Source: Candidatus Desulfofervidaceae bacterium (GTDB lineage: Bacteria > Desulfobacterota > Desulfofervidia > Desulfofervidales > Desulfofervidaceae). From it: a DNA stretch of 64,000 bases. Made by a program: the position numbers and the translations under genes. The stretch spans positions 1 through 64,000 of the forward strand of contig JAMOPI010000003.1 in assembly GCA_027064585.1 (NCBI GenBank), given 5' to 3'. How positions within the stretch are numbered: the stretch's first letter is position 1; each line of letters starts with the position of its first letter. Under the pieces are notes generated by a model. It was given only the letters and a program-made list of their open reading frames with translations, was not told where the DNA came from and made no database searches. Below are positions 1 to 29,290 of the stretch, piece after piece.

Positions 1-168
1 TGCATGCTTTTTGTGAGAAAACGGCACTCCCTTTTTCTTGAAGGTTCCAAAAGCAGGATCTTTTATCACCATCTTTTCTGGAAAGGAACCACTTATGGCA
101 AACGTATAACCTACAGCTAAGAAGGCTGCTATCGCTAAGATGACTGTTAAACCTTTCCATCCCTTCAT
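1..168 (-). CDS. Class III (c3-type) cytochrome, N-terminal part, runs off the left edge
   Basis: Fifty-six codons are visible from the ATG at 168, preceded by an AGGAGGTG ribosome site. Residues 7-24 form a hydrophobic export signal, so the product should be periplasmic. The last visible residues contain F-S-H-K-K-H, the F-x-H-x-x-H pattern that supplies axial heme ligands just before the first CXXCH of class III multiheme cytochromes. The heme-attachment motifs themselves lie beyond the window, so the family call rests on the signal and this motif only. The likely role is periplasmic electron carriage in sulfate or hydrogen metabolism. Confidence 0.6.
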   Translation of the reverse strand, partial: MKGWKGLTVILAIAAFLAVGYTFAISGSFPEKMVIKDPAFGTFKKKGVPFSHKKHA

Positions 169-208
169 CTTCCCTTTCACCTCCTTTCATTTAAATTTAA
201 GTGAATTT

Positions 209-237
209 AATATAAAAATCCAAAAGGCATTTGTCAA
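209..237 (-). promoter_or_regulatory. Sigma-70-type promoter of the cytochrome gene
   Basis: On the minus strand TTGACA (237-232) is followed after exactly 17 nt by TATATT (214-209). It lies about 40 nt upstream of the cytochrome start codon. Confidence 0.7.
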
Positions 238-246
238 GAAAATGTT

Positions 247-750
247 TTAACCCTTATAAGCCTTAATGATATCTTCTACCCGCTTTTTCACAAAATCAAC
301 TGCCTCTTTTAATTTTTCTTTAGAGATCGGTTTTATTTTGGCTGCCAAGGCATTTATCTCCTCTTCGTCTTTTCCTAACAATTTAGCTACATAAAATGTA
401 TCAATCTCTCCACCCTCTACTAAAAAACCACACCCACCAGCCGTACCTAAAAACTCGTCTTGATAGAAGATGGGCACGACAAATTTAGTAAAGCCGACAT
501 CACACTCACCCACGATCGGTATTCGTTTCTCTTTAGCTATTTTCATCATATTTTGCTGGGCCGAGGCACATACTATCCGGCTTTGTTCATTACCTTTAAT
601 TAATGGACATATCTCATTAGCCCAGCCTGGGGTTGGATGAATAATAAATCCTTCGTTATTGCTTACGGCTCCATTCATGCCAAACTTGGTATGAATTTCA
701 GTAGCCAGCTCTTGCCAACCTTCTACCGGAAGAATATCCTTTAACTCCAT
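247..750 (-). CDS. PocR ligand-binding domain protein
   Basis: A 167-residue protein that is essentially one PocR domain, the sensory module first recognised in the PocR regulator and often fused to histidine kinases or AraC regulators. Here it stands alone, with no output domain. Features of the family are the early 'GMNGAVSN' segment, 'CPLIKG' with a cysteine, 'CASAQQNMM' and the glycine-rich 'GTAGGCGF'. Several cysteines could hold a metal or redox ligand. It should be cytoplasmic, since there is no signal peptide. An AGGGAGGTG ribosome site precedes the ATG at 750. It is transcribed in the same direction as the cytochrome gene but has its own leader. Function as a stand-alone sensor is inferred. 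Confidence 0.8.
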   Translation of the reverse strand: MELKDILPVEGWQELATEIHTKFGMNGAVSNNEGFIIHPTPGWANEICPLIKGNEQSRIVCASAQQNMMKIAKEKRIPIVGECDVGFTKFVVPIFYQDEFLGTAGGCGFLVEGGEIDTFYVAKLLGKDEEEINALAAKIKPISKEKLKEAVDFVKKRVEDIIKAYKG

Positions 751-844
751 TGTTTCACCTCCCTTTTAAATTCTTCTGTCTTTTAGCACATCTTCATGAG
801 AAAAATCAAGTAAAATCTTGCAACTTTTCCAAGGCAAGATTAAA

Positions 845-1333
845 ATGCCAACTATGGGGTACATCTTTGAAAAGGCCAAGATGGCAGATGTAAAGTCTAT
901 TTATGAGCTTTTAACGTATTACGGACAAAAGGGCTTACTTTTGCCACGTCCTTTAAGCCAAATCTATGATTTTTTAAGGGATTTTTTTGTCTGTCGGCGG
1001 GAAGGAAAGGTCGTAGGCATTTGTGCCCTGCATATCTGTTGGGAAAATCTGGCCGAGATTCGTTCTTTAGCGGTAAAAGAAGCCTTTCAAGGTAAGGGCA
1101 TTGGCTCACGTCTGGTACAAGCCTGTTTGCAGGAAGCAATGAGCTTTGGCATTAACCGGGTATTTACCCTGACCTATCAGCCAGACTTCTTTAGAAGGTT
1201 TGGCTTTAGGGAGATTGAGAAGTCTCTTTTACCTCATAAGATTTGGGCAGACTGCATTCATTGTCCTAAGTATCCGGATTTATGTGATGAAATACCAATG
1301 TTATGGGAGTTTAAAAATGGAGAAGATTATTGA
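845..1333 (+). CDS. Short ArgA-type GNAT N-acetyltransferase (N-acetylglutamate synthase-like)
   Basis: A 162-residue single-domain GNAT protein. The acetyl-CoA loop is seen as 'GKGIGSRLV' after the beta-4 strand 'EIRSLAV'. Conserved blocks 'LLPRPLSQIYDFLRDF', 'ALHICWENLAEIRSLAV' and the C-terminal 'LPHKIWADCIHCPKYP' are typical of the short bacterial N-acetylglutamate synthases that start arginine synthesis in lineages lacking the long ArgA. No arginine gene lies nearby. I chose the ATG at 845; a TTG at 818 and an ATG at 854 are also in frame, and the ribosome site is weak for all three. The stop overlaps the next gene's start by 17 nt, suggesting co-translation. Confidence 0.75.
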   Translation: MPTMGYIFEKAKMADVKSIYELLTYYGQKGLLLPRPLSQIYDFLRDFFVCRREGKVVGICALHICWENLAEIRSLAVKEAFQGKGIGSRLVQACLQEAMSFGINRVFTLTYQPDFFRRFGFREIEKSLLPHKIWADCIHCPKYPDLCDEIPMLWEFKNGEDY

Positions 1334-2648
1334 GCAATGTGAAAAGGAAATTAAGAATAGGGGCATAAGGGAGTATGAAATCTATGCCGTAAAGATTAAG
1401 AGTACTGTTGTCCAAGTTAAAGAGAACAAGAACGATTTTGCCCAAACCGGCTGGTATGAAGGCCTAAGTTTACGGGTGTTAAATAATGGCAAACTAGGCT
1501 TTGCCTATACGACCGATTTAAGCCCGAAGGCTATTTCTCAATTAGTAGAAAAAGCTAGAACGGCAGCCACTGTTACTGTCCAGGAACCATTGCTTAAATT
1601 CCCCTTACTAGCAGAAGATTATCCGAGAATAGAGGAATATGATAATAAACTAGAAACCCTTACCCTCGCCCAGCGTATGGAATTTGCCAAAGAGATGGAA
1701 ACAGCGGCCAGGGAATTTAGCCCTTATATTAAAAGAGTAAGGCAGTCTCAGTTAAGGGATGTGATTTCAGAGGTTTTTCTCTATAACCAACATGGTAAAA
1801 CCCTCCACTATGCCCGTACTCTTCTTAGCGCCAGCATTTTGGTGATGGCCGAAAGGAGTAGTGAGGCTGAGATGGGTTGGCACTTTACCTTTTCCCCTTT
1901 TTATGCTGACTTGAACCCGGCTGCGATCGGAAAAGAGGCAGCTAAAATGGCCACTGAGGCCTTAGGGGCAAGACCTATTAAGACACAAAAGACAAATGTG
2001 GTGCTTATCAGTCGGGTAGCCAGTGAGATCTTAGATGTTATTAGTCACGCCTTTTTGGCAGAAGAAGTGCAAAAGGGAAAATCACTCTTGGCTCCTTACT
2101 TAGGAAAGACCGTTATGTCTCCGTTGGTAAACATCTATGATGATGGTCTTTATCCCAAGGGTTATAGCACTAGACCCTTTGATGATGAAGGAGTACCACA
2201 GCAGAAGACGGTATTGGTAGAAGGGGGGATAGTTAAGGGATGGCTTTATGATAGCTACACTGCGGCTAAAGAGAAGAAGGTGTCTACCGGCAATGCGGTG
2301 AGGCTATCTTTAGAAACCCCGCCCAAAGTAGGGGTAACTAACCTCTACTTAGCCCTTGGAGAAATGCCTTTTGAAGGCCTGTTAAAACAATTAGATACTG
2401 GCCTTGTGGTGACTGATGTCTTGGGTATGCACACAGCCGATCCTGTTTCTGGTGACTTTTCGGTGGGAATAAGCGGATATTGGGTAGAAAAGGGCGAGAG
2501 GGCCTTCCCAGTTAAAGGAGTGGCCATGGCTGGGAATGTGCTAGAGTTGTTTAAACGCATTGCTTCTGTGGGGAATGACTTGCGTTTTTGGGGACACTGT
2601 GGGGCTCCAAGCGTATTGGTAGAAGGGGTACAGATTAGTGGGACATAA
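1317..2648 (+). CDS. pmbA: PmbA/TldE subunit of the TldD-TldE metalloprotease complex
   Basis: A 443-residue U62 family protein from the ATG at 1317; an upstream in-frame extension would overlap most of argA and is unlikely. It lacks the HEXXH zinc motif of TldD, so it is the non-catalytic partner TldE/PmbA, which with TldD degrades unfolded peptides and matures some peptide cofactors. The C-terminal block 'MAGNVLELFKRI' followed by 'GAPSVLVEGV' is the family signature. No tldD is in the window. The gene overlaps argA by 17 nt and is followed after 63 nt by the BrxD-like ATPase pair, so the whole run may be one transcript. Confidence 0.88.
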   Translation: MEKIIEQCEKEIKNRGIREYEIYAVKIKSTVVQVKENKNDFAQTGWYEGLSLRVLNNGKLGFAYTTDLSPKAISQLVEKARTAATVTVQEPLLKFPLLAEDYPRIEEYDNKLETLTLAQRMEFAKEMETAAREFSPYIKRVRQSQLRDVISEVFLYNQHGKTLHYARTLLSASILVMAERSSEAEMGWHFTFSPFYADLNPAAIGKEAAKMATEALGARPIKTQKTNVVLISRVASEILDVISHAFLAEEVQKGKSLLAPYLGKTVMSPLVNIYDDGLYPKGYSTRPFDDEGVPQQKTVLVEGGIVKGWLYDSYTAAKEKKVSTGNAVRLSLETPPKVGVTNLYLALGEMPFEGLLKQLDTGLVVTDVLGMHTADPVSGDFSVGISGYWVEKGERAFPVKGVAMAGNVLELFKRIASVGNDLRFWGHCGAPSVLVEGVQISGT

Positions 2649-2711
2649 CTTGACGGTAACACCAGGGCATGCCACAATGAGGAAGAATCATTTAAACTTT
2701 AGGTAGCTAAC

Positions 2712-3959
2712 ATGCAACTTACTTCCCAAATTGCTAGACGCATCATTGAAACGGTAGGCAGTTATGGCACGCCACCTGAATACGGGTTTCAGTTTTTTAC
2801 CGCTGGACTTGAGCCATATCTGCAGATATTGCGTGAGGAGTATCTAAAGACTTACATCAAAGAAGATGGCGGGGCGGCTGTTAAAATCGTCATTGGGACA
2901 TACGGAGGTGGAAAGACACACTTTCTTTATTGCTTGCGTGAGCTTGCCTGGCAGGAAAACTTTGCCGTCAGTTATGTGCCCTTAAGTCCAGAGGAAACTC
3001 CCTTTTATCGCCTAGAAAGCGTGTATCGTAGCGTCATTAACAACCTTACCTATCCCCTTTCGGCCCAGGAGATCTTGCAGGGGATGGAAAAAGGGGTAGG
3101 TCCCTTTCTTATTGCTTGGTATGAAAGAGTCAGAGCTGGTTTTCAAAACGCAGGCCTTGGGGAGGAGGAAATAGAGACAGAGATCGGGCCTTATCTGGAC
3201 GCCCTGCAGCGAGGCATAGAAAATACCAACTTTGCCAAGGCCGTTACGGCTGCCTTTTGGGCCTTACACTATGGGGAGGAACAGAATTTTTATCACCTCT
3301 TGCAGTGGCTTAAGGCCGAGGGATATGACCGTGAGGTGCATCGTTTTTTTGGCATCCTTTCCCCCATTGACCGTAGTAATGCCTTTGCCATGATCCGTTC
3401 TTTGGTGCAATGGATAAGACAGATTGGTTACAGTGGGTTAGTTATCCTCTTTGATGAAGCCGAACCTATCGCCAGTTTAGGACATAAACAGAGGGAACTC
3501 ATGCTTTCTAATCTAAGGGAGTTAATTGATGCCTGTATGCTTACTTCCTTTCGCCATGTGATGGTCTTTTATGCCATACCAGATGAAAGGCTTTTAGAAG
3601 GCCCATCCTATATCTATGAGGCCCTGAAACAACGTATTTCTTCAGTATTTGATTTTTTCAATCCTTCGGGCGTAAAGATTGAGCTGGAGCGGACAAAGAT
3701 TGATCCAATAGCACTTTTGCTAGAAATAGGGAATAAACTTAAAAACATTTATGAAGTGGCCTATAGGATGAAATTGCCCCAAAGGACAGAGACGATTATT
3801 GCCACCGTGGCGGAAGAGGCCTATGAACGCCGCTTTGGCGATGTTGGCTACCTGCGTTTGTTTGTGCAGAATGTTATCAGGGCCTTTCACCTCTTACGTC
3901 AGGATCCTAAACTGGCAGAAAAGGATAAAAAAATCAAACGTATGTTAAACGTCTCATGA
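2712..3959 (+). CDS. BrxD-like (DUF2791) P-loop ATPase, first of a tandem pair
   Basis: A 415-residue cytoplasmic P-loop protein. Visible: N-terminal 'GSYGTPPEYGFQFFTAGLEPYL' type start, Walker A GTYGGGKT at residues 62-69, and Walker B 'VILFDEAEP' near residue 245. These match the DUF2791 ATP-binding family to which BrxD of type 2/3 BREX phage-defence systems belongs. Family members also occur outside BREX, beside DEAD-box helicases and TerB-like proteins. None of those partners, nor PglX, PglZ or BrxC, is present here. Its stop overlaps the start of a second, divergent member by 4 nt, so the two are surely co-translated and may form a heteromer. The biochemical role is unknown; defence is only an inference from the family. 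Confidence 0.82.
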   Translation: MQLTSQIARRIIETVGSYGTPPEYGFQFFTAGLEPYLQILREEYLKTYIKEDGGAAVKIVIGTYGGGKTHFLYCLRELAWQENFAVSYVPLSPEETPFYRLESVYRSVINNLTYPLSAQEILQGMEKGVGPFLIAWYERVRAGFQNAGLGEEEIETEIGPYLDALQRGIENTNFAKAVTAAFWALHYGEEQNFYHLLQWLKAEGYDREVHRFFGILSPIDRSNAFAMIRSLVQWIRQIGYSGLVILFDEAEPIASLGHKQRELMLSNLRELIDACMLTSFRHVMVFYAIPDERLLEGPSYIYEALKQRISSVFDFFNPSGVKIELERTKIDPIALLLEIGNKLKNIYEVAYRMKLPQRTETIIATVAEEAYERRFGDVGYLRLFVQNVIRAFHLLRQDPKLAEKDKKIKRMLNVS

Positions 3960-5284
3960 GAAAGCTGCGGGTCAGTCATCCCAGACTGGGCGAGGGCGTT
4001 ATCCTGGAAACCCGCCACCGGGGACAAGAGTGCCTGGTGAAGTTTCAAAATGGGCTTACCCTGTGGGTAAAGAGAAAGTTTCTTACCTTTGTTTCTCACT
4101 TAAGGACCGTGGAATCTAAAAAGACTCGTTATCCCTTTGCTCCTTCTATTTTACCTTTAAAACCAAGGGACAATCAAGGACGGGAGGTGATTGAAGCCTT
4201 CCGCATGGGCATTGTGCCCCAACCGTGGGTCAAGGGTTGGACGGTAGGGCGGGCAGAAGAAGTGGCTCAGATAAAGACATGGCTACACGATCAAACCTCT
4301 GGCACCCTTGTCATTAAAGGAGAATACGGGGCAGGAAAGACTCATCTCCTTGAATATGTTTTTTACAAAGCCTTAGAGCTCAATTACGCCGTGGCTAGGG
4401 TAAGTATAGATCCGGTGAGTGCCCACTTGGCCTTTCCCAAACGCATTTATAGTGGCCTTACCCAAAGCTTAAGGGTGCCTGCTTCCCAAAAGGAATTGGA
4501 CTTTCGGGAAGTCCTTGTCCTTTTGGCCCAGGCTGATGTCTTATCTGACCATAAGATCCTTGGTCCCTTTTTAAAGGCATTAAAAGAAGGTCAGGTTACT
4601 ACACCTATGTGGCACTGGATAGAGGGATTTGATACCTCCTTTTCTAAATGGGGCGGGCTTTATGACCATACCACTGCGGCCAATATTTATTGTTATATTC
4701 TTTCTGGTCTAAGCTATGCCTTAGTAGAAATCATGGACATAAACGGACTGATTCTCCTCTTTGATGAGGCCGAATCAAGCCGTATTTATCGTTACACCTA
4801 TGAATGGCTGCGCGGGATAAACTTTTTGCGAGCCCTTATCTTGGTAGCCAACGATGAGCCGGATTTGATAGAAGAAAAGGTGGTAAAGACAGAAACGTGC
4901 TACCAAGGTGAGCGCACCAATCTAATTTATTCAGGCCTGCGGCCGTTGCCCTATGTTTACCGGTTACCTACTTATTTAAAGGTTGTCTTTGCCGTAACGC
5001 CGGATGTCTCTTTAGAAAGACTAACGGCCGAATATAACATTTATACCATTGATCTAGAGCCTCTTCATCCTCAACTATTAGAGCACTTCTTTTACCGGTT
5101 TGTAGAACTCTATCGTCGGGTATACGGATTGACCCTAAGTAGCGTTGAAAAAAAGGAGATATTTTCGCTGATTCAACAATACGCCTTTATCTCTACCCGC
5201 CTCTTTATCAAGGCCATGGTAGAGTGTTTGGATTTTAAACGTTTTTATCCTCATAAAACAGTCAAACAACTAATCAAGGGGTAA
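3956..5284 (+). CDS. BrxD-like (DUF2791) P-loop ATPase with N-terminal tudor/SH3-like domain
   Basis: A 442-residue paralogue of the preceding gene, starting in a 4-nt overlap with it. Residues 1-50 ('HPRLGEGVILETRHRG', then 'VKFQNGLTLWV') form a small beta-barrel like the tudor-type domain at the C-terminus of UvrD/PcrA helicases or a CarD-type fold; such modules often bind RNA polymerase or nucleic acid. The ATPase core follows: Walker A GEYGAGKT near residues 122-129 and Walker B 'ILLFDEAES' near residue 265. The first paralogue lacks the N-terminal domain. The division into a plain and a tudor-bearing subunit is seen; the binding role is inferred. Confidence 0.8.
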   Translation: MRKLRVSHPRLGEGVILETRHRGQECLVKFQNGLTLWVKRKFLTFVSHLRTVESKKTRYPFAPSILPLKPRDNQGREVIEAFRMGIVPQPWVKGWTVGRAEEVAQIKTWLHDQTSGTLVIKGEYGAGKTHLLEYVFYKALELNYAVARVSIDPVSAHLAFPKRIYSGLTQSLRVPASQKELDFREVLVLLAQADVLSDHKILGPFLKALKEGQVTTPMWHWIEGFDTSFSKWGGLYDHTTAANIYCYILSGLSYALVEIMDINGLILLFDEAESSRIYRYTYEWLRGINFLRALILVANDEPDLIEEKVVKTETCYQGERTNLIYSGLRPLPYVYRLPTYLKVVFAVTPDVSLERLTAEYNIYTIDLEPLHPQLLEHFFYRFVELYRRVYGLTLSSVEKKEIFSLIQQYAFISTRLFIKAMVECLDFKRFYPHKTVKQLIKG

Positions 5285-5289
5285 TGGCC

Positions 5290-6105
5290 ATGATTAGAAA
5301 AATAGTTATTTTGGTCTTCTTATCAGCTTTTTCCTTTAACTCTTGGGCAGGGCAAATGGATTTATGGAAAATTTGTAATTATCTAAAAGCAAGAAAGTTT
5401 GTTGACTTAACCCACACATTTCATCCAGGAATCCCCCATTGGCCTGGTTTTCCGGATGAAAAAATAGAGACACTTTATTGGTATGAAAAAGGTGTAGGCA
5501 GCATTGGGGCTGGCTTTTTTGCTAGGAGATACTGCCTTGTAGGACAATGGGGTACGCATGTAGATGCGCCTGCTCACTTTTCCCCTGGAAAAAGAACTCT
5601 GGATGAGATTAGTGTTAAAGAAATGGTTATGCCTTTGGTGGTAATTGATGTCCATGAAAAGGTAAAACAGAATCCTGATTATATAATTACTCTTAAAGAC
5701 ATAGAGGCATGGGAGAAAAAATACGGCAAGATTCCAGAAGGGGCATTTGTAGTAATGAGAACAGATTGGTTTAAAAGATGGCCTGACATGAAGGCCATGA
5801 AAAATGAAGATAAAAACGGTATAGCCCATTACCCAGGTTGGAGTTTGGAGGTTTTAAAATTCCTTTGCGAAAAAAGAAAAATCTGTGCTATTGGACATGA
5901 AACTACAGACACAGACCCAGGCATCAAAACCTCTAAAGGCATTTATGAGTGTGAGACATATATTTTATCCCACAATCATTATCAAATTGAACTTTTAACA
6001 AATCTAGACAAACTGCCTGAAAAAGGCGCTATCGCGATTGTCAGTTTTCCCAAACCAGAAAAAGGAGCTGGATTTCCTGCACGTGTATTTGCTATTTTGC
6101 CTTAG
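5290..6105 (+). CDS. Exported cyclase / kynurenine formamidase-like metal hydrolase
   Basis: A 271-residue member of the PF04199 cyclase family. An N-terminal signal peptide ending near 'SWAGQ' places it outside the cytoplasm, unlike the cytoplasmic formamidases. The metal-binding motif is complete: 'HTFHPG' and the H-x-G-T-H-x-D-x-P-x-H pattern in 'WGTHVDAPAHF'; 'GHETTDTDPG' supplies the later conserved His. Two ATGs are possible: 5284 overlaps the preceding stop (TAATG), but the AGGGG ribosome site at 5276-5281 is well spaced only for 5290, which I prefer. The substrate is not predictable: family members hydrolyse formamides, esters or cyclic amides. Confidence 0.8.
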   Translation: MIRKIVILVFLSAFSFNSWAGQMDLWKICNYLKARKFVDLTHTFHPGIPHWPGFPDEKIETLYWYEKGVGSIGAGFFARRYCLVGQWGTHVDAPAHFSPGKRTLDEISVKEMVMPLVVIDVHEKVKQNPDYIITLKDIEAWEKKYGKIPEGAFVVMRTDWFKRWPDMKAMKNEDKNGIAHYPGWSLEVLKFLCEKRKICAIGHETTDTDPGIKTSKGIYECETYILSHNHYQIELLTNLDKLPEKGAIAIVSFPKPEKGAGFPARVFAILP

Positions 6106-7427: not shown

Positions 7428-7829
7428 ATGCTGTTTGAACAATATTTAAAAAGAAAAACAAGGCTTTTAACGAGGAAGCATGAAAACACACGAAGATGGG
7501 AACGGCAGAGGCAAAAACATGTAGAGCAGTTTCTCAGGTATTGTGAAAACAGATGGGGCATAAAAAAGATGAGCAATATTGAGCAAAAGCATTTTGACTG
7601 CTATGTTGGCTATTTAAGGCAGAGTAAGGGATATGCCGGCGAAACAATCAGAAAGCACTGTCTCTCTTTGAGGGACTTTTTTGAGCGGGCAAAGTTGAAC
7701 ATTAAAGTAAACCCAGAAAAAGGCAAAAAACGCAGGATTCAGAGAAAAATGCAAAAGATAGAACAAGTGCTTAGGAAGTGGGGGATAGAAAATCCTGAAG
7801 TGTTTGAAGATGTAAGAAATACTCTGTAA
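7428..7829 (+). CDS. Recombinase core-binding (SAM-like) domain protein without catalytic domain
   Basis: A 133-residue basic protein, with ATG at 7428 after an AGGAGG ribosome site. The pattern 'TRRWERQRQKHVEQFLRYCENRWG' then 'FDCYVGYLRQSKGYAGETIRKHCLSLRDFFERA' fits the four-helix SAM-like N-terminal domain of phage integrases. None of the catalytic R, H-x-x-R or Tyr motifs follows. It may be a broken integrase, or a small DNA-binding accessory to the full recombinase immediately downstream. Both genes are led by the same kind of GGTT-loop hairpin block, which argues for a shared origin. Confidence 0.55.
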   Translation: MLFEQYLKRKTRLLTRKHENTRRWERQRQKHVEQFLRYCENRWGIKKMSNIEQKHFDCYVGYLRQSKGYAGETIRKHCLSLRDFFERAKLNIKVNPEKGKKRRIQRKMQKIEQVLRKWGIENPEVFEDVRNTL

Positions 7830-7833
7830 ATTG

Positions 7834-7876
7834 CATCCTTCACCCTGGTTGGGGTGAAGGATGTGCCCGGTTGGGC
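7834..7876 (+). other. Two GGTT-loop hairpins ahead of the second recombinase
   Basis: A 13-bp stem (7834-7846 with 7851-7863, one G-T pair) is capped by GGTT. It is followed directly by GCCC-GGTT-GGGC (7865-7876). The segment GCCCGGTTGGGCAGCAGG, continuing TAAAC, is repeated exactly from 6721-6743. Confidence 0.65.
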
Positions 7877-7899
7877 AGCAGGTAAACACAAAAACCAGG

Positions 7900-7931
7900 G
7901 GGCAGTGAGGGCAGGCACTGCCCTATTTTTT
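7900..7931 (+). terminator. Terminator-like hairpin (possible attenuator) upstream of the recombinase
   Basis: GGGCAGTG (7900-7907) pairs with CACTGCCC (7916-7923), followed by TATTTTTT. It ends about 2 nt before the GGAGGAG ribosome site of the next gene, so readthrough would be needed for expression. Confidence 0.65.
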
Positions 7932-7946
7932 GGAGGAGAAACAAAC

Positions 7947-8957
7947 ATGGCCAAAGCACCCATGCAGATTAAAAACGACTACAAAATAAACCTCGTAGCC
8001 TCCAGCATAGCGGATTTCACAAACAGAGGCCAGGCATGGGAAGACAAAATAAAAACAGTCTTAAACGACCTGAGAGATGAAACAGGCCTGAAAACCCTGA
8101 AGGAACTGGATCAGTCAAAAATAGAGCAATACCTTGAATCCCTGCAGGACAGATTGGAAAGCGGCGACCTATCCGGAAGCGCAACCTCCACTTACATAAG
8201 TGCTTTAAACTCCATAATCGAATATGTGAACGAATACAGAAATACAGAGCTTGAAAAAATCAGTGCAGCCGCATGGGAGTTATCCCGTGGCCACCAGGAC
8301 TTTCAGGATAGATCGGTTTCAGAGCATGCCCATCAGGACTTTTTAAACTGGCTCCATCAGAAATACGAAAGCACCCAAAATGAAAACTACCTTGCCCTAG
8401 CATACTCAGTGGAACTTCAGCGGGAATTTGGCCTGCGTGCCAGAGAATCATTTGCTCTCAAAATCGCAGAAAAAGAAATAGGGGACACTCTCTCGATAAA
8501 CAAATACGACCTACCCAAAAACGCCAGGTCAAGGGAGATAGAAATCAGAATTGACTCACAAAAAGAAGCCCTCAAAGCAGCTCAAACCTTCGCCAGAGAA
8601 CACGGCTGGAAAAGCCTCATAGCCCCAAATATGTCTCTAAAAGAATGGAAAACCTTTGCTTATTCTTGCGTGCAAGAATTCAGGCAGGCCACAGGACATT
8701 CAGACTACCACTTCCACGGAGAACGCCACGCCTATGCTCATTCTCTATACTTCTCTTTATGGGAAGGAAAAACAGGGTACAAAGTAGAATGCCCGGTCGT
8801 AGTTGGCCTGGAAAAACAGGAATGGCTATCATACGCAGCAGAAAAAACAAGCATGGATGTAGAAAACATAAAGGAAATAGACAAAGAAATCAGGCTGGAA
8901 GTTAGCAAAAGCCTTGGACATAATAGAATAGACATTACAAGAACTTATTTGGGATAA
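7947..8957 (+). CDS. Tyrosine recombinase, integrase-domain (PF12835-like) family
   Basis: A 336-residue protein. The ATG at 7947 has a GGAGGAG ribosome site; the longer frame from 7854 would read through the hairpins. An N-terminal core-binding domain occupies about residues 1-115. The catalytic domain shows the first Arg in 'FGLRARESFAL', H-x-x-R as 'HGERHAYAHS', and the terminal 'LGHNRIDITRTYLG' with the nucleophilic Tyr. All core residues are present, so it looks active. This family occurs on integrative and conjugative elements. It differs from the zinc-ribbon integrase at the other end, so the element carries two unrelated recombinases; this one may resolve dimers or mark an older insertion. 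Confidence 0.75.
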   Translation: MAKAPMQIKNDYKINLVASSIADFTNRGQAWEDKIKTVLNDLRDETGLKTLKELDQSKIEQYLESLQDRLESGDLSGSATSTYISALNSIIEYVNEYRNTELEKISAAAWELSRGHQDFQDRSVSEHAHQDFLNWLHQKYESTQNENYLALAYSVELQREFGLRARESFALKIAEKEIGDTLSINKYDLPKNARSREIEIRIDSQKEALKAAQTFAREHGWKSLIAPNMSLKEWKTFAYSCVQEFRQATGHSDYHFHGERHAYAHSLYFSLWEGKTGYKVECPVVVGLEKQEWLSYAAEKTSMDVENIKEIDKEIRLEVSKSLGHNRIDITRTYLG

Positions 8958-9086
8958 AAATCTGCAAACAATCTAATGAACAATAAATCTCCCTTGTGAA
9001 AGCTTTATTTAACCCAAGATTATATGTTTTCCCTTTTCCAACCGCAAAAAAAGATTTGTGCCTCGAAAAAATTTTTAATGTTCAGA

Positions 9087-9287
9087 TGCACCGATGCACC
9101 ATTCATTATTTTTATTGACTATACCTGCAAAAGTTTGGTGCAGGAGCGCTTGCACCAATTCGCACCATTGCACCGTTTAAACTATCACCCCTTTGTTTTG
9201 GTGCGTTGGTGCAGTATGGTGCAAAGAGGGTTGCACCATTTTTTTATAGAGTTCCTCTGCGTTTTCTGGCCTTGGTGCATTGGTGCA
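9087..9287. repeat. Iteron-like array of GGTGCA/TGCACC hexamers
   Basis: Ten exact copies of GGTGCA in either orientation lie within about 200 bp, at 9087, 9095, 9137, 9151, 9169, 9208, 9218, 9232, 9274 and 9282. Two one-base variants lie at 9161 and 9200. Several are paired about 8-10 bp apart, close to one helical turn. The array runs from just past the 3' end of the helicase gene into its last codons. Such clusters at the end of a rep/primase gene are typical of replication origins of plasmids and phage satellites. Confidence 0.6.
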
Positions 9288-10301
9288 CAGAGGTATATTT
9301 TTTCTTTCTTCCACCTCCGAAGGCGCTAGCAGTGGATATAAGACATTTATACCCCCAGAAGCTATAATTGTCGCATATCTGCCTCGTCCTTCTATTTCAA
9401 CCAGCTCCTGTTCCTTTGCCTTGGCTAATCTGCGATTCAGGGCCCACTTAGATATCTGTAATATGTCCTGCAATTCTCCCTTGGACATCTTCCCACCATT
9501 TTCAAATATGATGTCAAGCATTTCCTTTACTTTAGGGTCAAAGACAGCCTCAAACAGCAAAGGCTGAAGCTCATATACGATGCGATAGTCGTCTATAGTC
9601 GCAATCACTTGTCCATGTTCGTTTTTGGGCCTCTGGTATTGGTGTAAAAGAGCAGATGCTTTAATCAGGTATAAAATTTTTTTGAAATCTCTTAAAAATC
9701 TTTCTTGATCGGTTGGAAAGCAAGAGGCAATTACATGAGCATAAGGGATAAACACGCCAACAGGCTGCAAAAGGGAATCTGCTATCTGCCAGATACGCAT
9801 TTCCTCAGTTGTTTCTTCCGATTCTTTAATGGCCAGGTAATATGCTTTTCTTGCTAGATCTGGGTTGTGTTCCAAGGAAATAACTATTACCCTAGTGCCC
9901 AGTTCAAAATCTATTTTGGTCCGTGTGGTTGTGGTAATCAGCACCATTCCGGTTGCATCTATTTCGTTTTCTCTTATGCCAATTTGTCCAGTACGGGTAT
10001 TCTTTTCTACTGTGCCTATCTTAAGCTTGCATTCTGACAACCCCGTCCTGATTGTCATGGCGGCGTCTTTTGTGCCAGGCAATTCAAATACAACCAGGAC
10101 TTTCCTTGCAAGTGGTTCAGAGCGATAAAGTAAGAAATTTGTCGTCATTCTTGTAAATTTTTCAACATCTTTAGGGTCAACAGTGGCCAGTACAGATTCA
10201 ACAAGCGCACTTTTACCAACGCTGCTTGCTCCTTGGATTATCAATCCAGTTCCTGTCTTGTTGTCTAGAAGCTTCCGACCAGTAATGATGAGCTTCGCCA
10301 A
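9177..10301 (-). CDS. Primase-associated helicase-type P-loop ATPase
   Basis: A 374-residue protein downstream of the TOPRIM primase. Walker A GASSVGKS is at residues 24-31. 'LVVFELPGTKDA' fits the Walker B strand, 'VLITTTTRTKID' the sensor-1 strand, and 'GTRVIVISL' an arginine finger region. This order is seen in helicase halves of DUF3854/primase proteins of phages and plasmids. A winged-helix-like segment 'MSKGELQDILQISKWALNRRLAKA' lies near residues 265-290. The first codon is uncertain: the TTG at 10301 is the visible start, but the frame stays open upstream into the preceding gene, so translation may be coupled to it. The C-terminal tail is encoded by the GGTGCA array. Confidence 0.65.
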   Translation of the reverse strand: MAKLIITGRKLLDNKTGTGLIIQGASSVGKSALVESVLATVDPKDVEKFTRMTTNFLLYRSEPLARKVLVVFELPGTKDAAMTIRTGLSECKLKIGTVEKNTRTGQIGIRENEIDATGMVLITTTTRTKIDFELGTRVIVISLEHNPDLARKAYYLAIKESEETTEEMRIWQIADSLLQPVGVFIPYAHVIASCFPTDQERFLRDFKKILYLIKASALLHQYQRPKNEHGQVIATIDDYRIVYELQPLLFEAVFDPKVKEMLDIIFENGGKMSKGELQDILQISKWALNRRLAKAKEQELVEIEGRGRYATIIASGGINVLYPLLAPSEVEERKNIPLCTNAPRPENAEELYKKMVQPSLHHTAPTHQNKGVIV

Positions 10302-10321
10302 TGTTCTGGCTTTTTCTCGGC

Positions 10322-11110
10322 CTACATAAAAGGCATTTGTGCCTCTATAAACTTTTGGAGCAAGGCAGGATTAGCGAGTAGTTCTTTTGCCCTGTGTTCT
10401 TCCTCCTGGGTCCACTCTTTGCTATTTTTGACTTCAGGTTTGGGTTTGAAAGCATATAAAAGGGAGAAAAAATCCTTTTTGCCCAGGCCAAGGGCTTTAG
10501 GTAAGAATGCTTGAATTAGAGTAAACTGTTCTTTGCTGAGATTAAGCTTTGATATGACTTTGATGATATCCCTTGGGTGATTTTGGGCTACTTTTGCCCA
10601 TTCCTTGGCCTTTTCACATAGTTCTTTAAAGGCCTCATGGCCTTGTTCTGCTATAAAATCGTCTACGCCGTATTTTTCTTTTGGTTTTGGTTTGGGAAGT
10701 AACACGATGTAAACATTAGCTCCCTCCAAAAAGAGGAAAAGTGAAAGCTTTAGCGCTGCCATTCGGACCTGGTAGTTGTCATAAATGTCTGGGCTGTCAT
10801 AAACTATGTGGACATTTCTTCCTCTCCAGTTAAAAACTTCTAGATCGGATGCTAGTTTGTTTTTATCAATAGTATTTGTAAAATTCCAGACCCCCGGAAG
10901 ACCAATAGCATTCCACCCATATTTACACAAACATACAGCTTTCTTTTCGCCTTCGGTAATTACCAACGGCTTATGTGGTTTTTCCCGAAGTTTCCAGATG
11001 TGGTCCAAGATGTAGGGTCTAGTGACTATCCCTGAAGGTTGTAGATACTTGACCTCTTTGTTCTCTTTTTCTACATTTATAGGTGGGGTGGGTAAAGCCT
11101 TACTCGACAA
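10322..11110 (-). CDS. DUF3854 (TOPRIM) primase, C-terminal part after a frameshift
   Basis: This frame encodes the TOPRIM core: 'LVITEGEKKAVCLCKYGWNAIGLPGVWN' holds the conserved Glu, 'VHIVYDSPD' the acidic strand, and 'YGVDDFIA' the later D-D motif. The family is the primase-like half of many phage and satellite replication proteins. The frame begins at a TTG (11110), but its first residues do not resemble a protein start. The domain's N-terminal portion is in the -1 related frame immediately upstream (11077-11322). Joined near 11085, the two give a continuous DUF3854 protein. It lies directly upstream of the helicase ATPase, as expected for a primase-helicase unit. Confidence 0.7.
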   Translation of the reverse strand: MSSKALPTPPINVEKENKEVKYLQPSGIVTRPYILDHIWKLREKPHKPLVITEGEKKAVCLCKYGWNAIGLPGVWNFTNTIDKNKLASDLEVFNWRGRNVHIVYDSPDIYDNYQVRMAALKLSLFLFLEGANVYIVLLPKPKPKEKYGVDDFIAEQGHEAFKELCEKAKEWAKVAQNHPRDIIKVISKLNLSKEQFTLIQAFLPKALGLGKKDFFSLLYAFKPKPEVKNSKEWTQEEEHRAKELLANPALLQKFIEAQMPFM

Positions 11111-11322
11111 AATCGGGCCCGGGGATATGGAATGACCAGGAAAGTCTCACACTCCCGGGCCAGGTCATGTTTTTTAAACTTTGCAGAACCAAGCAGTTCA
11201 AAAAGCCTTTTTCTCTTTTCTTCTTCACTGCCCTTCAGTTCATACCAACCCAGGGCTTCTACCTCCGGGCCAGAAAGCCCGGATTTTTCCAGGTCTGCTT
11301 TGATTACTTCGCTTGTTATCAT
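11077..11322 (-). CDS. DUF3854 primase, N-terminal part (frame-shifted from the following piece)
   Basis: Eighty-one residues from the ATG at 11322, which has an AGGAGGTG ribosome site. 'LEKSGLSGPEVEALGWYEL' and 'FLVIPYPRARFCRVRLYPP' are the start of DUF3854 domains, which continue as '..KYLQPSG..' in the next frame. The reading frame ends at TAA about 30 nt into the overlap. A -1 shift around the C-rich stretch CCCACCCCACC would restore the full-length protein. Decay, an assembly error or programmed frameshifting cannot be distinguished from one sequence. The start nearly abuts the AlpA-like gene, so the two are co-transcribed. Confidence 0.65.
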   Translation of the reverse strand: MITSEVIKADLEKSGLSGPEVEALGWYELKGSEEEKRKRLFELLGSAKFKKHDLARECETFLVIPYPRARFCRVRLYPPHL

Positions 11323-11324
11323 TT

Positions 11325-11564
11325 TTATTCACCTCCTTTCAATTCACGAATTCGCTGGGCCCTCTTTTCGCTTTCCACAATTGCCCTTTCCACTTCCTCT
11401 CGCCAGACATCCGCTCTGATGTAAAGCTTCCCGAAAATGCGAACAAAAAGCCTTGGGCACTTTCCGATTGAATGCCACTTCCGAAGAGTGCTGGGTTTTA
11501 TCATGATCCCAGCTTGCTCAAGCGCTTTTTGATCGCCCACCCAAATGAGTTTTTCCTTTTCCAT
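11325..11564 (-). CDS. AlpA/excisionase-like small HTH DNA-binding protein
   Basis: A 79-residue protein with an AAGGAGG ribosome site. 'IKPSTLRKWHSIGKCPRLFVRIFGKLYIRADVWREEVERAI' matches the MerR-like winged helix of AlpA/Xis proteins: recognition helix, 'wing' and a C-terminal helix. In satellites such genes activate excision or the primase operon. Here it is the first gene of the replication operon (it, primase, ATPase) and lies just downstream of the 38-bp dyad, a plausible binding site for it or for a repressor. Function is inferred from family and position. Confidence 0.7.
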   Translation of the reverse strand: MEKEKLIWVGDQKALEQAGIMIKPSTLRKWHSIGKCPRLFVRIFGKLYIRADVWREEVERAIVESEKRAQRIRELKGGE

Positions 11565-11881
11565 CTTCCTGCCTCCTTATGATTTGTTTTTCTCTCTATT
11601 TATTTAATGGGGAGGCAGTAAAATTTTGGGGATGGAGGTGAAGAAGTATAGAAAATGATTACTTGTCGTTACTCTCAACTAAAATTGCAGGGCTACAATT
11701 TCCGTTCAGCTAAAGATATTTTCAAAAAAAGAAAAAACAGGGTGTCCCGCGGTAAACAGTGAGTTATGTGGAAAACACTTTTACCAATTCGTCTCAAATG
11801 AGACAAACTGGTAAAAATAATTCAGAAATACCTGAAAACAATCCCACTGAGGGCTACCTTTGCCTAAAAAATGAATGACAA
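11565..11881. other. Control region between replication and toxin-antitoxin genes
   Basis: No gene is visible in 317 bp. It holds the 38-bp dyad (11779-11816) and should carry the promoter of the leftward replication operon. No clear sigma-70 pair stands out. Confidence 0.4.
11779..11816. promoter_or_regulatory. 38-bp dyad-symmetric site, candidate operator or origin element
   Basis: TTTTACCA (11779-11786) mirrors TGGTAAAA (11809-11816), and GTCTCA (11791-11796) mirrors TGAGAC (11799-11804) around an AA centre. Sixteen of 19 position pairs are complementary. The two-layer symmetry suggests a dimer-of-dimers site rather than a terminator, since no T-run follows. Confidence 0.65.
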
Positions 11882-12082
11882 TTAGAGTGGAGAAAGTTTA
11901 TTAGGATTATTTTTTGGGGATTTTACATCAAAGACTTCATCTCTTGAAAGGGTTCTCACTTTGTCAAGCTCTATGTCTTGTTTTCTTTCTAAAAGCTCCT
12001 TGTCTTCTCCTTTAAGCACAAGAGAAAGTGTCTCTATGTCTTCTTTGCTCATGTTGCTAATGATTTTTGCCAGATCTTCCAT
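11882..12082 (-). CDS. Small acidic/lysine-rich hypothetical protein
   Basis: Sixty-six residues, mostly helical: 'MEDLAKIISNMSKEDIETLSLVL' then a charged tail with 'LSRDEVFDV'. I do not recognise the family. The size, helical N-terminus and neighbourhood (HicB and a PIN antitoxin) would suit an orphan antitoxin. The ribosome site is weak. Confidence 0.4.
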   Translation of the reverse strand: MEDLAKIISNMSKEDIETLSLVLKGEDKELLERKQDIELDKVRTLSRDEVFDVKSPKNNPNKLSPL

Positions 12083-12109
12083 GTTAATATTTAGAGTTAT
12101 GTCTGACTT

Positions 12110-12325
12110 CTAAAGGTTTACCTCTACCTGGTAAGCCATACTATTGCTTACAGGAATTGGCATATTTTCAGCCTTTAGCCCTTCCAGGTGAAATTTAATA
12201 GCTTCACGCATATTTTGAATTGTCTCTTCAACCGTTTTGCCTGTGGCAACACAACCAGGTAAATCAGGGCAATAAGCAGAGTAGTTACCGTTGGCCTTTT
12301 CTATTATGACGGTATATTTAAGCAT
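12110..12325 (-). CDS. HicB-family antitoxin-like protein, no HicA partner
   Basis: Seventy-one residues with the partial RNase H-like HicB fold: 'YTVIIEKANGNYSAYCPDLPGCVATGKTVEETIQNMREAI', the usual Y-x-A-x-x-P-D-L-P-G-C core. There is no C-terminal HTH or RHH extension, and no HicA gene adjoins it, unlike the complete pair at 61.6-62.1 kb. It may be a solitary antitoxin that counters a toxin elsewhere. Confidence 0.8.
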   Translation of the reverse strand: MLKYTVIIEKANGNYSAYCPDLPGCVATGKTVEETIQNMREAIKFHLEGLKAENMPIPVSNSMAYQVEVNL

Positions 12326-12388
12326 TTTACTTCCCTCCCTTCAAACCTGCCTGTTTTAATCAGGGACGACTAAATAAAGTAGAAAAAT

Positions 12389-12592
12389 TTATTGGGTTTG
12401 GTTTTTCCTGAATTCCATTGCTTCTTTGCTCAATTCTTCCACTTTTTTATCTTTCCATAAATCCCGCTGCCACTTGGTGTAATCAAAGGGTTCTCTTTTT
12501 ATCAAAGAAATAAATCTCTCTGCTTCCACTTTGCCAAGCTCTTTTAACAGCACTTCCATGCCTTTTATTTTTAATTCTGTATCGGTTCTCAT
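12389..12592 (-). CDS. Antitoxin partner of the PIN toxin
   Basis: Sixty-seven residues, highly charged and helical ('ELKIKGMEVLLKELGKVEAERFISLIKREPFDYTKWQRDLW'). It starts in a 4-nt overlap with the end of the PIN gene. This pattern is common as the small partner directly downstream of VapC-like PIN genes. The toxin-first order is the reverse of classical vapBC. Confidence 0.6.
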   Translation of the reverse strand: MRTDTELKIKGMEVLLKELGKVEAERFISLIKREPFDYTKWQRDLWKDKKVEELSKEAMEFRKNQTQ

Positions 12593-13035
12593 ATTTCCTC
12601 CAGAATTTTCAAAAATTTAATTGGGTCTACTGCTGTGATTTCCCTAAGTTTTTCAATCTTCTTTAAAATTTTGTCATCTGTGGTTATGAAATAATCAGCT
12701 TTGCCTTCTATTGCACATGCAACATGCAGCGCATCTTTGGCTTTCAAGCCATAGCTGACCAATTCTTTTGCTTTTTGCAAAACTCTTTCATTTTCTTCAA
12801 TATCTAATATCGCAAATTGCTTCCATTCCCGAATAGCGTTTTTTCTCTCTTCAAAGGGATTCTGTTCGTTTTCATAATCTAGGATATATGACCATAAAAC
12901 TTTTAACCTGCCTTCAATGATTTTGTTTTGAATGTAAAGCTTTGCCTCCGTTTCAAGTTTTATCCGAATTGAAGATTGATCGTCAAATGGACGATTAAAC
13001 ACACAATTATCAAGATAAACCACTATATCTTTCAT
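12589..13035 (-). CDS. PIN-domain ribonuclease toxin (VapC-like)
   Basis: A 148-residue PIN domain. Acidic metal ligands are visible: 'VYLDNCVFNRPFDD' at the N-terminus, a Glu in the middle, 'LKAKDALHVACA' and 'ADYFITTDDKIL' near the end. It probably cleaves RNA when free of its partner. Its ATG overlaps the integrase stop (TAATG), so toxin synthesis depends on integrase translation. The coupling suggests it stabilises the element against loss. Confidence 0.8.
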   Translation of the reverse strand: MKDIVVYLDNCVFNRPFDDQSSIRIKLETEAKLYIQNKIIEGRLKVLWSYILDYENEQNPFEERKNAIREWKQFAILDIEENERVLQKAKELVSYGLKAKDALHVACAIEGKADYFITTDDKILKKIEKLREITAVDPIKFLKILEEI

Positions 13036-14183
13036 TATTTTAGTCTAACAACTCCGGTTTCTTTTTTCAACATTTTTTGCAGACCTTTAACCGCCTCTCT
13101 TTTCGTATCTGGTATTAAATGGCTGTATCGTTCGGTCATAGCTAAAGTTTTGTGACCTAAAAGCTCTTTTATTACATGTAAAGGTGTCCCCTGGATCGCC
13201 AGCCAGCTTGCGAATGTGTGGCGGAGAGTATGGAAAACGACTTTTTGCCTTGGGTCTGAAACACCATCGTTCAGCCCCAAGCTGTCCACTATTTCTTTAA
13301 AGAAGTGGGATATTTCCTGCACTTTAGTTTTGTAACTTGGGAAGATGTGCTCATCAGGCTGTCCTTTTTCTTTTTCCTGGAATATTTTTATAACCTCTTC
13401 GGTCATATAGGCCGCGCGATTGGTTTTGTTCTTGGGGTCTTTCACATAGATTATTTCGTTCTCTAAATCTATATCTGCCCAGGTTAAGTTAATTATCTCG
13501 CTGGCTCTTAGCCCGCAATATAAAGCAAGGGTGCATATTTCATACATCTGTTTACTTCTTTTTTGGCTCTCCTCTAGAACCATCTTAGCTTCTTCTGGCG
13601 ATAGGAAACGAATGCGTCTGTTATCTGTCTTGGGCTTGCTAACTTTTGAAACAGGGTTATCCCCCTTATAAATATCCCACAATATAGCCTTATTGAAAGC
13701 TTGTCTTACAATAGCAAGGGCATATTCAATGGTTCTGGGTGCTTTGCCGGCGTCTTTCATCACTTTTTTCATTCTTTCAAGGACAAAAGGAGATACATCT
13801 TTCAATGGTTTATTCCCGATTGTAGGCTTTATCCACAGCCGATAAATACTCTCCTCTCTGGCATAGCTTGAACTGGCTTTATTTTCCTTTGCCCAGGGTA
13901 GGTATTTCTTTTCCATGTATTCGGGGAAAGGGGTATTTTCCTTTCTGGCCTGTCTTCTATCATAATAATCGCCAGCTACTAATTCAGATTTGATTTTGCT
14001 TTCTATCTGTCTGGCTAACTCAAGACTGCCGGGCACCGTCTTGCATATTCGTCTACCGTTTACCATCACTCGCACATAGTATACTTTACCATGTTTCGGA
14101 ACGACAGCTCCACATTTAGGGCATTTCTTATGCTTTAAAGCAAAAGTGTTTTTGCATTTCTGACATAGATAGTTGACAGCCAT
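13035..14183 (-). CDS. Tyrosine integrase with N-terminal zinc ribbon
   Basis: A 382-residue site-specific recombinase from the ATG at 14183, with GAGGA upstream; an upstream extension to 14231 would start inside the 20-bp repeat. Residues about 4-30 form a four-cysteine zinc ribbon (C-x2-C and C-P-K-C-G). The arm/AP2-like and core-binding domains follow. The catalytic domain has Arg in 'YCGLRASEIINL', H-x-x-R 'HTLRHTF', 'LGHKTLAMTERYSHL' with the Tyr nucleophile. Its position, about 170 bp from the right-end tRNA repeat and reading away from it, makes it the enzyme that inserted the element at tRNA-Leu. Confidence 0.88.
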   Translation of the reverse strand: MAVNYLCQKCKNTFALKHKKCPKCGAVVPKHGKVYYVRVMVNGRRICKTVPGSLELARQIESKIKSELVAGDYYDRRQARKENTPFPEYMEKKYLPWAKENKASSSYAREESIYRLWIKPTIGNKPLKDVSPFVLERMKKVMKDAGKAPRTIEYALAIVRQAFNKAILWDIYKGDNPVSKVSKPKTDNRRIRFLSPEEAKMVLEESQKRSKQMYEICTLALYCGLRASEIINLTWADIDLENEIIYVKDPKNKTNRAAYMTEEVIKIFQEKEKGQPDEHIFPSYKTKVQEISHFFKEIVDSLGLNDGVSDPRQKVVFHTLRHTFASWLAIQGTPLHVIKELLGHKTLAMTERYSHLIPDTKREAVKGLQKMLKKETGVVRLK

Positions 14184-14207
14184 TTCTATCCTCTGTTGTT
14201 TCTTTCC

Positions 14208-14227
14208 AGTGGCCAAATAGTGGCCAA
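14208..14227 (+). repeat. 20-bp direct repeat near the right attachment site
   Basis: Identical to 6346-6365. GGTAAAA motifs also lie next to both copies. It overlaps the integrase leader, so it could autoregulate integrase as well as bind it. Confidence 0.6.
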
Positions 14228-14352
14228 TCAAGTATCCATTTCCTCACCACTCTATCATAAAAAAGTAAATTTTGTCAATCGTATTTTTGCCTATATTATG
14301 GGAAGTTAGTAAAAGCAGGCAAAAAATGGTAAAAGATAGAAAATGAAATTTA

Positions 14353-17030: not shown

Positions 17031-17240
17031 ATGAACGATGAATCCTTTTTTTGGGATTATGAAAAATGTTCAGAGATAAAATTTTTAGAGCGGATAGGTT
17101 TGTTTTTTCCCCAGCTGGGAAGAAATAAGAACATTGTGGTGCAATTATACAGAAATTTACATAAGTTAAATATACCTGAAGAAAACAAAAAACTTATTAA
17201 ACTTTACTATCAACTAATTGAAAATGGAGAATTGGCTTGA
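17031..17240 (+). CDS. Small partner of an AbiEii-type toxin
   Basis: Sixty-nine residues from the ATG at 17031. 'FFWDYEKCSEIKFLERIGLFFPQLGRNKNIVVQLYRNL' is reminiscent of the small W-D containing proteins often found just upstream of AbiEii-like nucleotidyltransferases. Its stop overlaps the toxin start by 4 nt (TTGA). It is inferred to be the antitoxin or a helper. Confidence 0.6.
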   Translation: MNDESFFWDYEKCSEIKFLERIGLFFPQLGRNKNIVVQLYRNLHKLNIPEENKKLIKLYYQLIENGELA

Positions 17241-17890
17241 AGGTATTAACTCTACTGCAAGATCAATTTTTAAATTTTTTTAAAGCATCTGAGCTATCTA
17301 ATCATTTTTATTTTACAGGCGGTACCGCATTGTCAGCCTTTTATCTTGAACACCGTTATTCTTATGATTTGGATTTTTTTACGGCGAAAAGAGATGCTTT
17401 AAATCTAGAAGCGATATTAAAATTTTTAAATTCCTTACCAGGACTAAGCCAGACAAGATATGAAAAAATATACGATAGAAGGTTGTTTTTTCTGCATTTT
17501 TCTGCCGGTGTGCTGAAGGTAGAATTTACATTCTATCCCTTTAAACAAATTGCCAAACCTAAAGTGGTTGAAGGTTTGGTTGTAGACAGTCTTGAGGACA
17601 TATTTGTGAATAAATTATGCGCATTGTGCGATCGGAATGAAGACAAAGATTTGATAGATGTCTACTTTATTTTAAAACACAAAGGGTTGAGCTATCTTCT
17701 ATGGGGAGTCAAAAAGATCAAAGAGAAATTTGGCATAGATGGGGCTGAATACGTTATTCAAAGAAGGTTGATAACTGTGCCTAAAGAGTTGGATAATTTA
17801 CCTTATTTGATAAAACCAATCTCAGGCTATAGAGACTTTTTAAAAAAAGCCGTGGTGATGCTGGCAAAAGAATATTGGGATTTGGATTAA
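17237..17890 (+). CDS. AbiEii/AbiGii-family nucleotidyltransferase toxin
   Basis: A 217-residue protein starting at TTG 17237. 'FYFTGGTALSAFYLEHRYSYDLDFFT' is the nucleotidyltransferase signature with G-G-T-A-L and D-L-D-F metal ligands; 'SLEDIFVNKLCALCDRNEDKDLIDVYFIL' is the conserved AbiEii middle block with K and D-x-x-D. In this family the enzyme modifies tRNA or nucleotides and gives abortive phage defence. The pair is transcribed against the phosphate genes on both sides, so it looks inserted. Confidence 0.82.
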   Translation: MKVLTLLQDQFLNFFKASELSNHFYFTGGTALSAFYLEHRYSYDLDFFTAKRDALNLEAILKFLNSLPGLSQTRYEKIYDRRLFFLHFSAGVLKVEFTFYPFKQIAKPKVVEGLVVDSLEDIFVNKLCALCDRNEDKDLIDVYFILKHKGLSYLLWGVKKIKEKFGIDGAEYVIQRRLITVPKELDNLPYLIKPISGYRDFLKKAVVMLAKEYWDLD

Positions 17891-28769: not shown

Positions 28770-29290
28770 GGTTGGCCTCCTAAATGCCTTTTAATATATG
28801 CCCAGTCTAATTTATGAGCATAATGTTGTTTAATTTCTTCTATATCAAGCTTGTCCTGGGGTCTATTAGAGAGGGACTTCATGATAAAAATATCTTCTAA
28901 AGAAAGGATAGGTAATATAGTATCCTCAAATTCTATTTCTATACGGCGTTTCAAAGCCTCTTTATGAAAAGGTGTTTTTGCCAGTAAAAAATCTAAAATA
29001 AATTCTTCATTCTCCTTTATAACTACCACACGCCAGATTTCTGTTTTGTTAAAGACCATTGGCTTAGGATGAGAAAACACATCATCAAATATTTGCGCAA
29101 GCTCATGCTCTAATTGCTCAAAATCTTTTTCTTTCTCTAAAAGAATTAAAAAGTCTATATCCACCGTTGCTCTTGGTTTAACTAAAGCGCTATAAGCTAA
29201 TCCCCCAGCTACAGCGAAACAATAACCTTTACGCCTTAAAAGATCGGCTACTTCTTTTAAGACTGTAATAAGTTTAACTCGCGTTCCCAC
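28766..29290 (-). CDS. Nucleotidyltransferase-fold protein (toxin-like)
   Basis: A 174-residue protein from GTG 29290 (AAAGG site); a TTG at 29323 would add 11 residues. 'YCFAVAGGLAYSALVKPRATVDIDFLI' holds the G-G and D-x-D nucleotidyltransferase motif; 'LSLEDIFIMKSLSNRPQDKLDIEEI' matches the AbiEii-like block with K and D-x-x-D. It overlaps a small upstream gene, as in toxin-antitoxin pairs, and its stop overlaps the purDE start by 4 nt, so it is transcribed with purine genes. Confidence 0.72.
   Translation of the reverse strand: MGTRVKLITVLKEVADLLRRKGYCFAVAGGLAYSALVKPRATVDIDFLILLEKEKDFEQLEHELAQIFDDVFSHPKPMVFNKTEIWRVVVIKENEEFILDFLLAKTPFHKEALKRRIEIEFEDTILPILSLEDIFIMKSLSNRPQDKLDIEEIKQHYAHKLDWAYIKRHLGGQP

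Follow-up and report, generated by a model that had tools for sequence, protein, structure and literature searches.

Two adjacent genes in the analysed stretch of DNA (64 kb of the genome of a Candidatus Desulfofervidaceae bacterium, a deep-branching sulfate-reducer; hereafter the window) encode different ATPases, A and B, which in other bacteria form part of a four-gene module. The module itself is so far unnamed and is composed of parts from known families. In the Desulfofervidales the A-B pair is vertically inherited and retained, and in the genus of the window the cognate helicase of the module has apparently been lost.

The tandem ATPases and the Tudor-like domain of B

The following features were distinguished within the pair:

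2712..3959, + strand: ATPase A (415 aa), a BrxD/SngB-like ORC/Cdc6-type AAA+ ATPase (PF10923)
2895..2921, + strand: Walker A of A (GTYGGGKTH, residues 62-70); GGGKTH invariant in seven relatives
3438..3464, + strand: Walker B of A (LVILFDEAE, residues 243-251); DE invariant in seven relatives
3956..3959, + strand: ATGA overlap of the A stop and the B start, read in the sequence
3956..5284, + strand: ATPase B (442 aa), a diverged PF10923 paralogue with an N-terminal Tudor-like domain
3956..4093, + strand: UvrD/PcrA-type Tudor-like domain of B (residues 1-46), assigned from a profile search, hhalign and the strands of the model
4319..4345, + strand: Walker A of B (GEYGAGKTH, residues 122-130); kept in seven relatives
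4748..4774, + strand: Walker B of B (LILLFDEAE, residues 265-273); DE invariant in seven relatives

A matched the whole PF10923 (BrxC_BrxD) domain with 174.8 bits, and B, which diverges beyond its N-terminal P-loop half, matched that half with 61.6 bits. Both scores exceed the curated cut-off of 22.2 bits and the P-loop motifs are intact, which makes both proteins members of the family; theirs are the only PF10923 genes in the genome of the window (G000). In the PADLOC search, A scored 138.6 bits with BrxD and 92.7 bits with SngB. Translation of the two genes is likely coupled through the ATGA overlap, and the same 4-nt overlap is present in G001, G002, G003, G005 and G009. A genome-wide search of G000 for PglZ (PF08665), the product of a core BREX gene, gave no match, and neither PglX nor PglW was noticed within the 64-kb window. 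The ORFs, the Pfam matches and the absence of PglZ bear out the preliminary description of the locus as two overlapping BrxD-like ATPases unaccompanied by any other BREX gene. The A and B sequences form separate groups in a tree, which is consistent with an old duplication, the deep branches, including the split between the groups, being weakly supported (75/93).

The structures of both proteins were predicted with AlphaFold2 on the basis of alignments of seven sequences (mean pLDDT 76.8 and 75.1 for the two proteins). Using VIA-align, the model of A best matched archaeal Cdc6/Orc1 (2qby; Z 12.9, 251 residues, rmsd 3.6), with further matches to TnsC (Z 11.4) and BrxC (Z 9.9), and the model of B best matched ORC2/Cdc6 (1w5t; Z 14.5, 248 residues, rmsd 4.6). 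By these models, A and B are predicted to belong to the fold class of the ORC/Cdc6-clade AAA+ proteins, the Z values speaking for fold and not for function. The archaeal and eukaryotic ORC-Cdc6 heteromers resemble A-B both in predicted fold (Z 12.9-14.5) and in being hetero-pairs of paralogous ATPases, and both proteins had the Sulfolobus Cdc6/Orc1 heterodimer (2qby) among their top matches. However, the identity of A and B to ORC-Cdc6 is only about 10-18%, the client of A-B would be a non-hexameric SF2 helicase, and no origin-binding function is implied. Full-length profiles of A and of B, searched against PDB sequences, returned nothing useful.

When the profile of the N-terminus of B was searched against all PDB sequences, four matches were obtained up to E 10 (E 0.04-0.54), all of them UvrD/PcrA. 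Comparison by hhalign with the UvrD Tudor sequences of relatives gave a probability of 92.6% (E 4.5e-7), and four strands (residues 5-8, 12-20, 25-30 and 35-39) are predicted in the model. The earlier proposal that B carries a UvrD-type SH3/tudor module is upheld by these matches. When just the Tudor-like region was scanned with Pfam, PcrA_UvrD_tudor was detected in only one of seven members (E 0.15). With the C-terminal Tudor domain of PcrA/UvrD, the domain of B shares the VxHPxxGxGxV core of a small beta barrel and an invariant histidine, whereas it is placed at the N-terminus of an AAA+ ATPase and not at the C-terminus of a helicase.

The Tudor domain of PcrA binds RNA polymerase, for which K712 is needed (PMC5397179), and it also recognises a motif that other partners carry (PMC5397179, PMC8318588). 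By analogy, the domain of B might dock on RNA polymerase or a PcrA-partner-type motif, with the ATPases clearing stalled complexes or R-loops in transcription-coupled genome maintenance; the restriction of the PDB matches to UvrD/PcrA Tudor and the vertical retention of the pair would suit such a role. We nevertheless regard it as improbable. The position aligned to K712 is mostly not a lysine in the seven B proteins (the domain is short and the alignment approximate), so that the RNA-polymerase-contacting lysine has no conserved counterpart and the contact suggested in the preliminary description is doubtful; the histidine of the partner-binding surface of PcrA is kept. Furthermore, the domain is present in B of the Desulfofervidales, Nitrospinae, G009 and G060, but it is missing from B of loci L050 and L114, which argues that the machine can do without it and marks it as a putative accessory docking part.

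The CC-A-B-helicase module

In other Desulfobacterota, in Nitrospinae and in one cyanobacterium, A and B are usually located in the middle of a compact module with the order CC, A, B, SF2 helicase. CC is a protein of ~280 aa with a coiled-coil-like N-terminus, whose gene flanks A-B in G009, in further Desulfobacterota and in a MAG from the Nitrospinae (L016), and the SF2 helicase following A-B was placed near SngC/BrxHI by PADLOC. The arrangement was found at loci L016, L023, L049, L050, L065, L066, L068, L073, L074 and L076, and also on plasmids of Aulosira (L114) and Desulfomonile (L115). Giant-helicase variants are present at L065, L066, L068, L074, L076 and L078. In the SNF2 variants (L067, L069, L070 and L072), CC-A-B is followed by a 188-aa protein and an SNF2 helicase of ~740 aa that resembles ZorD/DpdE; the two copies of A checked in these modules (L067 and L069) have no recognisable Walker A. 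Given this variation in helicase type (DEAD-type, giant, SNF2), the shared core may not load one specific helicase. At L079 (G391; positions 1-4398), CC is followed by three PF10923 ATPases in succession, and a gene for a small HNH-like protein (5705-6019) lies directly upstream of the module at L050.

PF10923 genes were detected in 33 of 395 genomes of the phylum, in tandem in 24 of them and as single genes in nine; both single-gene loci that were read (L081 and L082) are Shango loci. CC was present in 23 of the 24 tandem-pair genomes, the remaining one being truncated where its contig ends, and in 2 of the 371 others (Fisher p 7e-34), i.e. G004 and G384 (a broken copy). The CC profile was built partly from tandem-pair genomes that were themselves counted; without these seed genomes the co-occurrence was 11/12 vs 2/371 (p 1.7e-18), and with the Desulfofervidales collapsed to one it was 7/8 vs 1/370 (p 3e-13). 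The CC proteins gave no PADLOC match. We know of no PADLOC model for the tandem-plus-CC module, and no published description of it was found in the literature searched, the coverage of which was incomplete.

This genome-neighbourhood comparison revealed that A-B is a conserved unit, kept together among relatives, as had been supposed. It does not, however, agree with the idea of a minimal two-component system of its own: in relatives A and B are two subunits of a four-part module, and CC is encoded elsewhere in the genome of the window, as is an unlinked helicase in sister genera. A self-sufficient pair, to which CC would be incidental, is quite unlikely in our opinion. A and B are the sole constant neighbours in all Desulfofervidales loci, the helicase was not found in G000 and G001, and none lies directly downstream of CC-A-B at L071 (G157); but CC tracks the tandem pair almost perfectly, and outside the Desulfofervidales the helicase is as a rule adjacent.

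Module components in the Desulfofervidales

The A-B pair was found in every sampled Desulfofervidales genome except G004, an incomplete MAG. Besides the window's genome, these are the other genome of the genus (G001) and genomes from two further genera of the family and from a second family of the order, and identity across them is 69-71% for A and 61-71% for B. G004, which represents a fourth genus of the family and is 81% complete, encodes CC and, at a contig edge, a helicase fragment; its lack of A-B may therefore be due to a gap in the assembly. The trees of A and of B are mostly parallel, with the groups (G000,G001) and (G002,G003) in both. Since dN/dS was saturated in most pairs, G002-G003 was the sole informative pair for both genes; its pN/pS was about 0.13/0.69 for A and about 0.17/0.73 for B, similar to PolB. 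Both A and B are under purifying selection. The pair is located among housekeeping genes, outside defence islands, in surroundings that vary by genus, the order GNAT-TldD/PmbA-A-B being common only within the genus of the window.

Other features of the window were also recorded. A putative cyclase gene (PF04199; 5284-6105) is not conserved beside the pair in relatives; its earliest potential start codon overlaps with the B stop codon in TAATG. A probable integrated element (7428-14231) contains (i) integrase-like genes (7428-7829 and 7854-8957), (ii) an ATPase/primase-like pair (9177-11110), (iii) small toxin-antitoxin-like genes (11882-13035) and (iv) a tyrosine integrase gene (13035-14231). 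Two lone nucleotidyltransferase-like ORFs (17237-17890 and 28766-29323) resemble AbiEii/MNT-type proteins.

The CC gene of the window's genome (G000:C29:14809-15630; E 3e-31) is unlinked to A-B and lies far from it, in a housekeeping operon. Each of the six Desulfofervidales genomes encodes CC, and the order pyrF/hps-SIS-CC around it is constant (the pyrF/hps and SIS neighbours were named by reading their sequences). The helicase gene is likewise unlinked to A-B in G002, G003 and G005. In G000 and G001, a search for the cognate SF2 helicase gave only generic DEAD/SF2 matches, the best one in G000 (1.4e-13, generic DEAD) comparing with about 1e-270 in G002, G003 and G005; this absence from the genus refers to two MAGs, each rated 100% complete. 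Thus, of the components of the module, the window's genome contains the tandem A and B and an unlinked CC, but not the cognate helicase. If the widespread arrangement is the ancestral one, the separate loci imply that the ancestral operon was split.

In G002 (L038, 5982-9977), the unlinked helicase gene directly adjoins a gene for an ~800-aa family-B-like DNA polymerase, and in G000, G001 and G003 the polymerase gene has no adjacent helicase. A fixed helicase site beside this polymerase was considered and rejected: the arrangement was seen only in G002, and an empty site could not be demonstrated.

Kinship with defence systems and the proposed role of A-B

BrxD has been classed as an ORC/Cdc6 protein linked to BrxHI, and a function in helicase loading was proposed (PMC12839542). 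The module resembles BrxD-BrxHI of type-2 BREX in the association of an ORC/Cdc6-type PF10923 ATPase with a BrxHI-like SF2 helicase. It differs in having two different ATPases and CC in place of one ATPase, and in the window's genome also in the lack of PglZ, in the helicase, which is not adjacent to A-B and apparently lost in the genus, and in the scores against the BrxD equivalog NF033438 (A 138.3 and B 54.7 bits; cut-off 350). Shango, comprised of a TerB protein, an ATPase and a helicase, has been proven to act against phages (PMC10250203). Full modules share with it an ATPase of the same Pfam family, a SngC-like helicase and one non-ATPase partner, but this partner is CC and the ATPase is a hetero-pair, whereas in the same phylum Shango loci (L081 and L082) have a single ATPase and no CC. 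The CC proteins of L016, L023, L065, L067 and L114 gave no SngA match, while L081 and L082 did. No SngA-like gene is present beside A-B, and Shango membership of the pair was ruled out.

The Pfam and PADLOC names, and the lack of another BREX gene nearby, might be taken to indicate that A-B is what is left of a decayed BREX or Shango locus. This is highly improbable and largely refuted. The Walker A and B motifs are not dead but intact in both proteins, pN/pS is low, the pair is kept in four further Desulfofervidales genomes, A is far below the BrxD cut-off (138 vs 350 bits), and neither CC nor a second ATPase belongs to BREX or Shango as these systems are defined. A BREX remnant was ruled out on the absence of PglZ, the low BrxD score, conservation and selection. 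Nor are close homologues confined to BREX or TerB-helicase loci, as the view of this copy as a leftover had anticipated, though one homologous module does adjoin BREX.

That module is carried by a conjugative plasmid of Aulosira laxa, in which the full CC-A-B-helicase set is located directly after PglX, PglZ, BrxD and BrxHI (type-2 BREX). On a Desulfomonile tiedjei plasmid the set is accompanied by AbiEi/AbiEii genes. Both contexts support a defence-related origin. They also favour, together with the SngC/BrxHI-like helicases, the proven anti-phage activity of Shango (PMC10250203) and the patchy distribution in the phylum (24/395 genomes), the view that the system is still an active anti-phage defence, a relative of Shango and type-2 BREX that senses and blocks invading DNA with parts from separate loci. 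We consider this possible but doubtful, since the system is universal in near-complete Desulfofervidales assemblies and lies there among housekeeping genes, with its components distributed between two or three loci and with the sequence evolution of a housekeeping gene. Moreover, no nuclease is linked to it, no helicase could be found in the window's genus, and searches of phage and viral collections gave no match. Its universal presence, housekeeping neighbourhoods and splitting point instead to a vertically maintained role in the Desulfofervidales.

A phage or viral origin was rejected, as neither B of the window nor B of Aulosira had a match in phages, nor A1 in viral contigs. A distant relative of ATPase A is held by 649 plasmid records, mostly of Klebsiella/Salmonella and mostly conjugative; in a Klebsiella plasmid taken as an example, no annotated gene lies under the match.

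The explanation that we favour, with modest confidence, is that A-B, probably with CC, constitutes the hetero-ATPase of the CC-A-B-helicase module, which loads or activates an SF2 helicase, and that it is a defence-derived system now inherited vertically, its helicase apparently lost in the genus of the window. A is a relative of BrxD/SngB, and B is an old, diverged paralogue that gained a UvrD-type Tudor-like domain, presumably a docking site. A and B would co-assemble with CC, a structural or adaptor partner, on DNA or a DNA-protein complex, and ATP binding would permit the assembly to load or activate a SngC/BrxHI-like SF2 helicase on DNA. The kinship and plasmid contexts of the module suggest descent from a BrxD-BrxHI/Shango-like module of anti-mobile-element origin, which in the Desulfofervidales would have become a vertically inherited chromosomal system with genes at separate loci. 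With the helicase missing from the window's genus, the loading role has no known client there, and A-B-CC may work with another helicase or remodel its target alone. A bolder and, in our estimation, unlikely extension of this explanation is that the defence-type loading module was domesticated into a helicase-free hetero-ATPase with a core function in Desulfofervidus-like bacteria, A-B and the unlinked CC serving as a Tudor-targeted, ORC-like bacterial remodeller in chromosome maintenance.

BrxD-type ATPases are among the least understood parts of BREX. The hetero-paired BrxD-type ATPases with CC make their proposed helicase-loading role testable without BREX. The module, which occurs next to BREX on a plasmid and elsewhere as a dispersed system inherited vertically, also offers an example in which the possible conversion of a defence machine into a core function can be studied.
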